From Phycisphaeraceae bacterium (GTDB taxonomy: Bacteria > Planctomycetota > Phycisphaerae > Phycisphaerales > SM1A02): a DNA stretch of 64,000 nucleotides. Below the pieces are notes generated by a model. It was not told where the DNA came from, made no database searches, and saw only the letters and a list, made by a program, of their open reading frames with translations. Shown one piece after another: positions 51,800-55,550 of this stretch (position 1 is its first letter; each line of letters starts with the position of its first letter). The translations under genes and the position numbers were made by a program. The stretch is from positions 1,302,001 through 1,366,000 of the forward strand of contig CP054178.1 of NCBI GenBank assembly GCA_015709595.1, written 5' to 3'.

Positions 51800-52135
51800 G
51801 GGCAAACTCCAGACGGCGCGAACTGTCGAGGCGAAGGACAGCAAGGCAAAGGGCGGCGAGGTGAAGCGATCTCACGAGCACCCGGTCGAGCCGAGTCATC
51901 CCGCAAACGATGGGCGCACCGAACCGGCCCGGCGAGCCGACGAAGGGAGACGCCCCGTCCCACCCATTGGCAGGGCGTCCAGCCGGACCGGCGAATCGGC
52001 TCCACATGGTAACGGATTACGGGGCGGAGGTTGAGGGGGTGGGACGGCATCATCGTTTCCCTCGGCTTCGCTGATGGTCGATGTCACTCCAATCCGGTGG
52101 ACGCAGGAGGGTGTGGCGGCGACCCTCCAAGAGCT
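51800..52135. other. divergent spacer with possible controller operator
   Basis: 336 bases without a gene, carrying promoters for the tandem amidohydrolase (minus) and the restriction-modification-like operon (plus). A hairpin GGAGGGT / ACCCTCC (52106-52112, 52122-52128) lies just ahead of the controller gene. One arm of an inverted repeat is at 52080-52089. Confidence 0.5.
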
Positions 52136-52156
52136 ATGCCGCGTCCGAGTGACATC
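52080..52156 (+). promoter_or_regulatory. inverted repeat, candidate controller-protein operator
   Basis: GATGTCACTC (52080-52089) and its exact reverse complement GAGTGACATC (52147-52156) flank the controller start codon with 57 bases between. Arms of this kind could bind a dimeric Xre-type regulator on both sides of its own start. Confidence 0.4.
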
Positions 52157-52378
52157 CTCTGCCGTCGATTCGGTCGTGCTGTTCGTGAACGGCGATTGGA
52201 ACTTGGGTTGACGCAGGAAGCGCTCGCCGTCCGCGCCAAGCTGAATCGCTCGTACATCACCGATGTCGAGCGAGGAGCCAGGAATATCGCACTGGTCAAC
52301 ATGGCACGACTCGTTCGTGCGTTGGACATGACCGTGATCGAATTTTTCCGCAGGTATGACCTGGAAGGGAGTGAGTGA
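52136..52378 (+). CDS. Xre-family controller-like (C) regulator
   Basis: 80 residues, the size of C proteins of restriction-modification systems (70-85 residues). The helix-turn-helix is FGRAVRERRLELGLTQEALAVRAKLNRSYITDVERGARN (residues about 12-50), with the recognition helix NRSYITDVERG. The gene is followed directly by the putative nuclease with TGATG overlap. C proteins delay nuclease expression until the methyltransferase has acted. Position, size and fold make this the likely role. Confidence 0.75.
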   Translation: MPRPSDILCRRFGRAVRERRLELGLTQEALAVRAKLNRSYITDVERGARNIALVNMARLVRALDMTVIEFFRRYDLEGSE

Positions 52379-53400
52379 TGCCAACCCTTCTGGAAACAGT
52401 GCTGGCGGCCTCGGATCTTTTCGATGTCGAGGCGGTGATTGCTCGGTACCCGTGGGTGGTGGGGAGCGGACACGACTGCATTCTCAGCCCCGACGCCGAC
52501 GGTCAGCTCTGCGGGCTGCTGCTTTCCAATGCACTCGGATGGCGAATCCGCGGCTTCTACGACGGCAAAGCGCTTGTCGTTGACGCAGGAGTGGACCCGT
52601 CCCGCTGCATCTACGTGGACATGGAGATCTGTCGTGCAGGCGTGCGGAGTTTCGGGAACCACATGCTGGCGTTCAATCTCGGTCGCAGGTCCGATGATTG
52701 GGACGTGAGATTCGCGGACTGTTTTTCCATCAATAACTGGCGATCGCATGATCGACGGGCCTTCAACCGGAAGTACCCGTTCGCTTCGATCCACTTTCTC
52801 CTGCCCACTCTCGCGGCGCGATTCCCGATCACCGTCCCGCCCACTGCGGCAGGCCCACTGTTGTTTGCCGATGGCGTCTACAAGATATTGCTCCAGTACA
52901 CCGAGAACGCGTGGGACTGGATGCGCTACCTTGGCGTGGAACGATCCGAGAGTCCGCTTCATTCGCTGTTTCACAGCCCCGATCTCAGTGTCTATGAGGT
53001 GATGACGAAGATGCTCGATTTCTGGCGCCGCCGTGACGAGTTGAGCACGACGGGACACCGCGGAGATCGAATCGCCATCACGGAGCGCGGCGGCGACGGT
53101 CGCGTCGTCAACCTGATCGAATCGGGAAGCGGATCGGCTCGTACGTGGAGGTACGCCGATGAACCACGGGGGCGAATCGAGACGTTTCTTACCATGCTTG
53201 GCGAGTTGACCGGCTGGCCCTACCGGAAGTCGATGTGGACGTGGAGCGGATGGCGGCTGGTCGAGTTTGAGAAACGCATCGCGAGCGACGTCACCGACCT
53301 CGCGGCGTTCAGGGGGATCATGGACCGGTCGCCGCTTTCATGGGCGATCACCGCGCGAGACCGTGTCGAGTACACACTGGACCCACACGGCGTTTTCTGA
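52378..53400 (+). CDS. putative restriction nuclease, DHH-like residue pattern
   Basis: 340 residues from ATG 52378 (GTG 52375 is also in frame), coupled to the controller stop. I recognise no restriction-endonuclease fold. The N-terminal half has HDCILSPDADGQLCGLLLSN (DADG at 39-42), IYVDMEICRAGV (Asp81, Glu83), GNHMLAFN (His95) and LLFADGVYK (Asp165). Order and spacing recall the DxDG, D, H and D motifs of DHH-family phosphoesterases such as RecJ, with the DHH triplet replaced. A nuclease role is inferred from this and from location. Base composition looks less GC-rich than in neighbours. Confidence 0.55.
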   Translation: MPTLLETVLAASDLFDVEAVIARYPWVVGSGHDCILSPDADGQLCGLLLSNALGWRIRGFYDGKALVVDAGVDPSRCIYVDMEICRAGVRSFGNHMLAFNLGRRSDDWDVRFADCFSINNWRSHDRRAFNRKYPFASIHFLLPTLAARFPITVPPTAAGPLLFADGVYKILLQYTENAWDWMRYLGVERSESPLHSLFHSPDLSVYEVMTKMLDFWRRRDELSTTGHRGDRIAITERGGDGRVVNLIESGSGSARTWRYADEPRGRIETFLTMLGELTGWPYRKSMWTWSGWRLVEFEKRIASDVTDLAAFRGIMDRSPLSWAITARDRVEYTLDPHGVF

Positions 53401-53410
53401 CCGGTCAGAA
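53395..53410. terminator. 16-bp palindrome shared by two convergent stop codons
   Basis: TTCTGACC / GGTCAGAA, perfect. The nuclease stop (TGA) and the methyltransferase stop (TCA on the plus strand) both lie in it. It may act as a bidirectional terminator (stem TTCTGA, loop CCGG) or a protein site. Confidence 0.6.
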
Positions 53411-54268
53411 CAGGAGGTTCGCGTCCTTGCCAAGCCGTTGCCGAACCAGTTCACAGTACTCAGCGCTGATGTCGAAGCCGATGAAATGGCGGCCCATCTG
53501 CTTCGCCGCGACGGCTGTCGTTCCGCACCCCATGAACGGGTCGAGAACAATACCCCCCTCCGGGCAGAAGCACTGAATCGTGTCACGCGGAATCGCATCC
53601 GGGAACACCGCCGGGTGCTTCCGCTTGAGCGGATCCTTGTCACCGGCCATCAGATAGGGCCAGACAGTCCCACGGCACTTCATCTCATTGATCGGCCGAC
53701 GCACCGTGGAGTTGGTTTCCCCATCGGTACGCCGGTTGCCGCTTCCGCTCATCACCTTGCCGCCGTGCTTCGAGGGCACTTTCAGCGGCTCCTTGTTGAA
53801 GTACGCCGGACGGTCGCCCTTGAGAAACAGTGGGATGTACTCGTGATCTACGCGAAATCGATGCGTCCACCACGCGCCCTCCGACCCGTGCTTGCGATAG
53901 ATGACGCACTCGAACAACTTGAAGCCGATGCGGTCGCACCAGTCCACGATCGTGCGGAAGGATGTCAACGACTTGCCGAACTTGATCGTCTGGTCCTGAA
54001 TGACCATTGCGGCGATGGCGCCGTCCTTGAGCACCCTGAAGAGCTCCTCGCCGGTCCGAGCGAGGTCGTACGAGAACCCCTTGTAGGTACGAATCTGGTC
54101 GTACGGCGGAGAGAACACCGCGTGGTCGATACAGACGTCTGGTAGCTGGCGCATCCCCTCAACGCAGTCCATGCACTGCACCGTGTCGAGCCACGAGGCG
54201 ATCGGGTCCATCGGCGTCGCCGCCGGACTGGTCATGGTCGCCACGCTGACATCGCCGTTCCGTACCAT
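53405..54268 (-). CDS. beta-class DNA methyltransferase (N4-cytosine or N6-adenine)
   Basis: 287 residues from ATG 54268. The order of motifs is catalytic first and AdoMet-binding last: SPPY (53-56), then GTVWPYL, KHPAVFP and DPFMGCGT (243-250). This is the beta-class circular order; SPPY is most often found in N4-cytosine enzymes. The HPA-FP block and the C-terminal FDISAEYCELVRQRL match the family. A target-recognition segment lies at about 100-200. It is convergent with the nuclease candidate, with only 4 bases between stops. The recognition site cannot be deduced. Confidence 0.9.
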   Translation of the reverse strand: MVRNGDVSVATMTSPAATPMDPIASWLDTVQCMDCVEGMRQLPDVCIDHAVFSPPYDQIRTYKGFSYDLARTGEELFRVLKDGAIAAMVIQDQTIKFGKSLTSFRTIVDWCDRIGFKLFECVIYRKHGSEGAWWTHRFRVDHEYIPLFLKGDRPAYFNKEPLKVPSKHGGKVMSGSGNRRTDGETNSTVRRPINEMKCRGTVWPYLMAGDKDPLKRKHPAVFPDAIPRDTIQCFCPEGGIVLDPFMGCGTTAVAAKQMGRHFIGFDISAEYCELVRQRLGKDANLLF

Positions 54269-55256: not shown

Positions 55257-55327
55257 TTTCACGACTTCAGAAAAAAGGGGACGGGACGGATCAAGCCCCG
55301 CAGGCGGCGGATCGGGGCCTGGCATGG

Positions 55328-55515
55328 GTGTGCCACGGCTCTGCGAGCCGTGCTGTGTGGTGCTGTGACGCGGCGGCGCCCGCACGGCCGAGACGGCCGT
55401 GGCACACGGCGCCGACGAACTCGCGCCATCCGGTGGTGTGCCACGGCTCTGCGAGCCGTGCTGTGCTGTGACGCGGCGGCGCCCGCACGGCCGAGACGGC
55501 CGTGGCACACGGCGC
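55328..55515. repeat. tandem duplication of a composite palindrome unit
   Basis: Four family 2 palindromes (55334-55352, 55383-55401, 55442-55460, 55486-55504) are arranged as two copies of a unit of about 108 bases. The second copy lacks a short TGTGG-type segment. The first unit runs into 'GCGCCATCCGGTG', also found at 46740. Confidence 0.75.
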
Positions 55516-55527
55516 CGGTGAACTTAC

Positions 55528-55550
55528 GCGACGCGGAGCGCCGCGCCACC
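55528..55550. repeat. palindromic repeat family 1
   Basis: GCGACGC-GGA-GCGCCGC (one A-C mismatch), followed by GCCACC. Confidence 0.6.

Follow-up and report, generated by a model that had tools for sequence, protein, structure and literature searches.

What kind of system is formed when a small regulatory gene, a protein of no recognised family and a DNA methyltransferase are packed end to end in a bacterial genome? The question is raised by positions 52136 to 54268 of the window, as we call the whole 64,000-nucleotide stretch of contig CP054178.1 from a Phycisphaeraceae bacterium that was analysed here. The cassette begins with an Xre-type controller gene (C; 52136..52378, + strand, 80 aa), which matches HTH_3 (1.8e-11) and the PADLOC Control_protein model (1.7e-16). 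Its TGA stop codon (52376-52378) shares one base with the ATG at 52378 from which the second gene, R, is read (52378..53400, + strand, 340 aa; a GTG at 52375 is an alternative in-frame start giving 341 codons). R is convergent with the third gene, M (53405..54268, - strand, 287 aa), a beta-class DNA methyltransferase (PF01555, N6_N4_Mtase, 1.8e-34), and the stop codons of the two lie 4 bp apart. A first-pass annotation of the window had described this coupling of an Xre gene to a 340-residue open reading frame (ORF), convergent with a beta-class methyltransferase, and all three elements were confirmed. Our favoured answer, held with moderate confidence, is that the cassette is a mobile type II-like restriction-modification system in which R would act as a DHH-type restriction endonuclease.

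The methyltransferase is the most readily classified of the three proteins. M matches the PADLOC models oMTase/MTase_II, its best matches among PDB sequences are N4-cytosine methyltransferases (2.9e-18, residues 210-281), and other PDB or beta-class matches include PvuII methylase, CcrM and MboIIA. Its SPPY motif lies close to the N-terminus and DPFMGCGTT close to the C-terminus, an order that marks the beta class, and SPPY itself usually points to N4-cytosine as the target. M is thus like the beta-class N4/N6 methyltransferases just named in having PF01555, SPPY, DPFxGxG and the PDB matches, and unlike them in being paired with a DHH-type protein and, in 21 of the 69 loci described below, fused to LexA.

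The restriction-modification reading is well supported by genomic sequence, through the recurrent convergent M, the controllers, which at some loci come with operators, and a pattern of decay in which R goes first, and to this extent the earlier proposal of a defence or modification system has held up. To collect relatives, patterns from six close R proteins (R only) were run against 84,980 species genomes and returned 62 R-related loci. To these were added 11 more, namely the window copy, nine loci that came from genome searches and one from a plasmid; after removal of 4 duplicates 69 distinct loci were left, 62 of them with a full-length R. Whether homologues of R keep company with methyltransferases had been set beforehand as a possible refutation; they do so in 58 of the 62 distinct full-length copies, where an M gene lies within 60 bp of R. 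Fifty-six of these pairs are convergent, and in the other two M is on the same strand, once directly downstream and once directly upstream. Most of the 58 had been found with R-derived patterns alone, and a random position would fall that near to an M end with a mean chance of 2.5% (63 loci). The distances among R proteins and among their M partners are correlated (r = 0.59, 0/2000 permutations, 55 pairs), partly because of common host descent. The partners in the 58 all match one M profile strongly, except those of L071 (115 bits, at a contig end) and L080 (30 bits). At the latter locus (L080:5941-9101, a Methanococci bin) the gene convergent with R codes for a different methyltransferase, of 705 residues, showing PF01170, a weak PF01555 and a sub-cut-off DUF1156, a case of partner swap.

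The way in which the cassettes decay is informative in its own right. A short R was seen in 7 of the 69 loci, although these are low numbers and a frameshift in a bin may stem from faulty assembly. In an Altarchaeum bin (L078) R has been split by an IS1 transposase ORF (1246-1986, - strand; PF03400, 7.6e-27) and other DNA while M is intact, and in L083 and L084, where M is again intact, R has suffered internal deletions. L079 has a frameshift in R and a damaged M as well; L081 and L085 hold R fragments with no M found in the available DNA, the former carrying a LexA fragment; and in L082 R stops at the contig edge. Conversely, an M of fewer than 240 residues occurs in just 3 of the 58 pairs (L032, L056, L071), all cut by a contig end, and a full-length R with an internally broken M was not seen among the 58. 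That R is broken where M is intact would follow from R being harmful in the absence of M.

Controllers accompany a part of the family. A C gene lying within 60 bp upstream of R, overlapping it or abutting it was recognised by hidden Markov model in 29 of the 62 full-length loci, the window included, and by eye in L025. The C proteins are of two types, and 29 upstream regions were extracted for study (12 of the first type, 17 of the second), some being missed, for example those of L007 and L020. The usual C-box core is GACTnnnAGTC. An exact copy stands upstream of first-type C genes in 2 of 12 regions (L060, L067) and a AACTnTAGTnTGTnG box in 5 of 12 (L037, L039, L046, L059, L061), while TTCCAnnnTGGnATAT, allowing up to 2 mismatches, precedes second-type C genes in 15 of 17 regions as compared with 13 of 1700 shuffles. 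As AACTnTAGTnTGTnG and TTCCAnnnTGGnATAT were derived from the same loci, these figures are a description and not an independent test. A possible operator lies upstream of the window's own C gene (52079..52100, + strand), where 20 of 22 bases are the same upstream of C in the relative G198 (L007), a likeness noted by eye and carrying no chance estimate.

The fusion of M to a LexA-like part suggests a link to DNA damage. Such an N-terminal part is found in 21 of the 69 loci (L027, L028, L029, L030, L031, L036, L038, L041, L044, L048, L049, L051-L055, L063, L066, L072, L074 and L083) and is absent from the window copy. It is complete or partial (DNA-binding plus S24 peptidase), depending on the locus. 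In all of the 5 fusions scanned, LexA_DNA_bind (PF01726) and Peptidase_S24 (PF00717) scored above the Pfam cut-offs, and residues 7-201 of the L030 fusion match solved LexA (6.8e-32). Simple patterns found a stretch [AVI]-A-G-[QEK]-P, which we take to resemble the LexA cleavage site, in 15 of the 21, and a stretch [GN]-x-S-M, presumably like the LexA serine motif, in 17 of the 21. The fusions are thus like the LexA repressor in having both its domains and unlike it in being joined to a DNA methyltransferase. By title, 19 of the 21 bear names assignable to Patescibacteria and 2 are called 'bacterium' only; in L035 and L040 a separate LexA-like gene stands beside M. A fusion of this kind fits a system able to break host DNA, and no LexA-methyltransferase fusion occurs among the literature matches listed, mostly openly accessible papers.

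What, then, is R? Family searches give little. Searches of Pfam, NCBIfam, PADLOC, PHROGs and PDB sequences brought up nothing for the window R, and for its relatives only weak, unrelated or unnamed hits (PADLOC PDC-M33C at 0.02, PHROG 16833 at 0.014, domains of unknown function at 0.0067 or worse). The R-family profile A4 found nothing among PDB sequences at E 10, no DHH family (PF01368 or similar) was hit among 54 R members at E 0.1, and no family match for R to PD-(D/E)XK, HNH, GIY-YIG, PLD or half-pipe enzymes emerged from the Pfam, NCBIfam and PADLOC scans.

The residues that R conserves are more telling. Numbered from the ATG at 52378, and with invariance counted over 55 aligned R proteins, the DxDG, D-x-E, H and later D that the first-pass annotation had picked out are all present. 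Motif I is D39-A-D41 (D39-x-D41-G; 52492..52500, + strand), invariant in 55/55 and placed after a strand at 33-36, and motif II is D81 (D-M-E with E83; 52618..52620, + strand), likewise invariant in 55/55 after a strand at 78-80. Motif III is N94-H95 within G-[HNQ]-H (52657..52662, + strand), with G93 and H95 invariant and position 94 being H in 32, Q in 17 and N in 6 of the 55. Motif IV, D165 (52870..52872, + strand), is invariant in 55/55 and lies within the helix 155-173. As five residues are invariant in all 55 proteins, these motifs are not a product of chance. D39, D41, D81, H95 and D165 are also retained in the distant P0014 and P0020, and further invariant residues are N119, R122, K132 and N177.

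Structure prediction allows a comparison with known folds. The AlphaFold2 model of R (54-row alignment) has a pLDDT of 94.5 and a pTM of 0.92. When it is ranked by VIA, the first 43 rows are DHH-superfamily proteins (Z 7.0-4.1), classed by title or by what the entry is known to contain, save for 6mtz, whose title says only 'uncharacterized' and gives no family; below them the list goes on with a sugar isomerase at Z 3.3. The list comprises archaeal and bacterial RecJ, Cdc45 (as we take the replisome chains to be), DhhP, PggH, NrnA, GdpP and family II pyrophosphatase, with RecJ and Cdc45 in the lead. Folded alone, the catalytic domain (pLDDT 90.6) again yields DHH proteins, classed in the same way, in the first 38 rows (Z 7.3-4.5), followed by an unrelated row at Z 4.3, and aligns with Pyrococcus furiosus RecJ over 145 residues at 4.1 Å. 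Residues 13-336 of the full model align with residues 0-450 of the same RecJ, so that the C-terminal part of R may correspond to RecJ too. Restriction folds do not appear among the 50 VIA rows listed for the full model and the domain, which is no proof against them. A stretch KYPFG in R resembles, by eye, YPFG in the RecJ of the same genome, and we note it as a lead only.

From the model, R is likely to be of DHH type, either a divergent relative or a look-alike of these enzymes; we use the term 'DHH-type' and have not filed R as a member of the superfamily because it shows neither the literal D-H-H nor a profile match. R is like the superfamily (RecJ, archaeal RecJ/GAN, NrnA, DhhP, GdpP, Cdc45) in the VIA ranking of its predicted fold, at a moderate Z, and in the order D-x-D, D, H, D. 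It is unlike the superfamily in having G-[HNQ]-H for D-H-H, in showing no detectable profile similarity and in its linkage to a methyltransferase, and motifs II and III are separated by 13-14 residues in R versus about 24 in the RecJ of relatives. As to the other refutation set beforehand, a known non-nuclease fold, the prediction is not plainly of that sort, although pyrophosphatases and nucleotide phosphodiesterases are found among DHH folds too.

Put together, these features suggest how the cassette might operate. M would methylate one short site in host DNA, most likely as N4-methylcytosine, and C would set the timing by holding back the C-R operon for as long as the chromosome is still unmarked by M. 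R would hold two divalent metal ions with D39, D41, D81, H95 and D165 and hydrolyse DNA at sites that M has left unmarked. We infer site-specific DNA cutting by R, together with metal binding by R, protection by M, regulation by C and mobility of the whole; the weakest step of the proposal is the conversion of an exonuclease-type fold into an enzyme that would cut duplex DNA at specific sites. As to the broader picture of a widespread mobile restriction-modification family with a sequence-specific DHH-type endonuclease and a mostly Patescibacteria branch whose LexA-fused M would make protection and expression respond to DNA breaks, we regard the chances as about even.

A number of observations weigh against this interpretation. 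RecJ and other characterised DHH nucleases work on single strands, which they degrade from one end, and a duplex cutter with sequence specificity would mark a change from this behaviour. The literal D-H-H is absent from the 55 aligned R proteins, G-[HNQ]-H standing in its place. The structural ranking is moderate, with a VIA Z of 7.3 at most, where values below 8 may reflect a common arrangement and VIA re-ranks Foldseek candidates only. With the full model the best Foldseek E-value is 7.9e-3, and NAD synthetases intrude from rank 4 on; with the catalytic domain it is 0.13, and most of the listed rows are not DHH proteins. When profile A4 was compared with 14 RecJ/NrnA proteins of the lineage, the best score fell inside the range of 20 shuffles each, and a cleaner set of 13 did no better than its shuffles. 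No C gene was recognised in about half of the loci with a full-length R, and the window copy lacks a clear GACTnnnAGTC box, its best candidate having 3 mismatches. Then there are the loci in which the pairing fails. L019 (7941-9029, + strand), on the 436 kb Alkaliphilus plasmid pB6464, holds a distant R-like gene beside dnaE and a primase and without M, its product retaining all five key residues. In L011 M lies 256 bp off by open-frame ends, with a 218-residue ORF (P0015; 3328-3984, - strand), which shows by eye a D...DxK pattern, between it and the R-like gene. In L023 (2190-4063, - strand) the R-like protein P0019 retains only D39 and D41 of the five, without equivalents of D81, H95 and D165; a PLD nuclease with a sub-cut-off NgoFVII match is adjacent, and no M was found. 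The remaining exception, L062, is an R that starts at a contig edge, with no M within 2.8 kb on the other side.

Two of these loci bear on the most serious alternative, that R is an accessory of the cassette, for example a DHH exonuclease acting on ends left by another nuclease, or a specificity subunit, and that the first cut is made by something else. The extra ORF of L011 is possibly, from its sequence, a conventional PD-(D/E)xK nuclease, though P0015 has no plasmid relative and no convincing family; the PLD nuclease of L023 adjoins a copy of R with degenerate motifs; and the known DHH nucleases are exonucleases. Yet in 58 of the 62 loci R and M form a compact unit, in many of them together with C, and no further nuclease was noticed there (the flanks were not systematically scanned), and R is broken beside an intact M in three loci, as expected of a toxic cutter. 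We consider such an accessory role unlikely, while giving it more weight than the other alternatives.

The same fold could also serve a quite different purpose, in which R, as a DHH phosphodiesterase, would have a signal nucleotide or nanoRNA for its substrate and M would be regulatory, the two forming an epigenetic or abortive-infection switch. DhhP, NrnA, GdpP, PggH and pyrophosphatases do share the fold and occur in the VIA lists, but those lists are led by RecJ and Cdc45 proteins, the combination of a convergent M and a C gene preceded by C-box-like operators resembles a known type II layout, and the LexA-M fusions point to DNA damage, so that a switch seems to us distinctly improbable. 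Less probable still, and in our view a slim prospect, is that R is no DHH protein but some other alpha/beta fold, alike in arrangement only and with an active site of its own. The Z scores of 7.3 or less, the non-significant Foldseek results with unrelated proteins interleaved, and the want of both a profile match and a literal D-H-H would all suit this. However, DHH proteins take the first 43 (one of them untitled as to family) and the first 38 VIA places, and the invariant residues, set at the ends of strands and in a helix, succeed one another as in DHH proteins (D-x-D, D, H, D). With regard to the DHH-like nuclease of the first-pass annotation, the invariant residues and the structural ranking speak for it, whereas profiles miss RecJ, the Z scores are moderate, the Foldseek results fall short of significance and D-H-H lacks its D.

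The reading of a restriction-modification system with a DHH-type endonuclease also finds a parallel in known systems. In Esp1396I a C/R operon is convergent with M and C represses M as well (PMC4041747). The present cassette is like Esp1396I in that C and R form one operon, M is convergent and C-box-like operators stand upstream of C in several relatives, and it differs from systems of that type in that family scans assign R to no known class of restriction enzyme. Most type II restriction endonucleases, according to a 2014 review, are PD-(D/E)XK, HNH or GIY-YIG enzymes, with some of the PLD and PabI-type half-pipe kinds, and others that are unassignable may represent new folds or mechanisms (PMC4081073). 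A DHH restriction enzyme, if true, would fill part of the gap left by these unassigned enzymes. It would also be a case of an exonuclease-type fold turned duplex cutter, and the LexA-M fusions would tie restriction directly to the DNA-damage response. No DHH restriction enzyme appears among the literature matches listed, which are mostly openly accessible papers and do not cover REBASE, and as far as those matches go the DHH catalytic class would be new for restriction enzymes. The suggestion of a new nuclease class is therefore plausible for restriction enzymes and has no precedent among those matches, although cutting by R is something we only infer. With more than 50 sequences to choose from, the R family lends itself to tests of cleavage. 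A paper on the Endo VII catalytic motif (PMC6083498) has 'DHH' 9 times, for what we judged by its title to be a different motif. DHH phosphodiesterases are reported from jumbo phages (PMC7824862).

The distribution of R is broad and thin. In whole-genome searches with a protein query, relatives turned up in 2 of the 294 phylum genomes and 6 of the 400 order genomes sampled, and in profile searches in 7 of 397 genomes of the class (6-row profile) and 2 of 392 of the phylum (8-row profile); these samples overlap, and the window's own genome is counted once in each. The 62 pattern loci bear the labels Planctomycetota, Chloroflexi, many Patescibacteria groups, Bacteroidota, Chlorobi, Ignavibacteria, Omnitrophota, Alphaproteobacteria, Tenericutes and Chitinivibrionia among the bacteria, and Methanobrevibacter, Methanococci, Pacearchaeota and Altarchaeum among the archaea. 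Since all 62 titles are those of metagenome-assembled genomes or bins, host labels on short contigs may be wrong. One relative (L024, the same protein as G302) comes from the window's own order and is titled Phycisphaeraceae. Three pattern scans of viral contigs (P0002, P0006, A3) gave no R relative, nor did a single-protein pattern from P0002 on genome contigs, nor tblastn against phages with P0006 and P0014. Against plasmids, tblastn gave one match with P0006 and none with P0002 or P0014. Taken over all searches, the putative restriction-modification family is widespread and scattered over bacteria and archaea.

Finally, the surroundings of the cassette deserve mention. The cassette has a GC content of 60.8%, against 68.3% in the rest of the window. 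A value as low occurs in 2 of 619 sliding windows of equal length, and the 12 lowest-GC windows of that length all overlap the cassette, which is the lowest-GC stretch of the window, consistent with recent arrival. The genome itself is a single contig of 3.84 Mb, 99% complete. An empty site was not demonstrable among 21 genomes (its own included): the three flanking proteins were matched in 17, 16 and 6 of them, and the first two lie on separate contigs in G312, G316, G345, G363 and G542, as compared by eye. Type I and type III readings were dropped, no helicase or specificity gene having been noticed by eye in the window's neighbouring ORFs, which were not family-searched. A little downstream, at 55327-55536, the window contains direct repeats (85 nt at 87% and 36 nt at 94%) and inverted arms around GTGTGCCACGGCTCTGCGAGCCGTGC, which perhaps make up a repetitive palindromic element.

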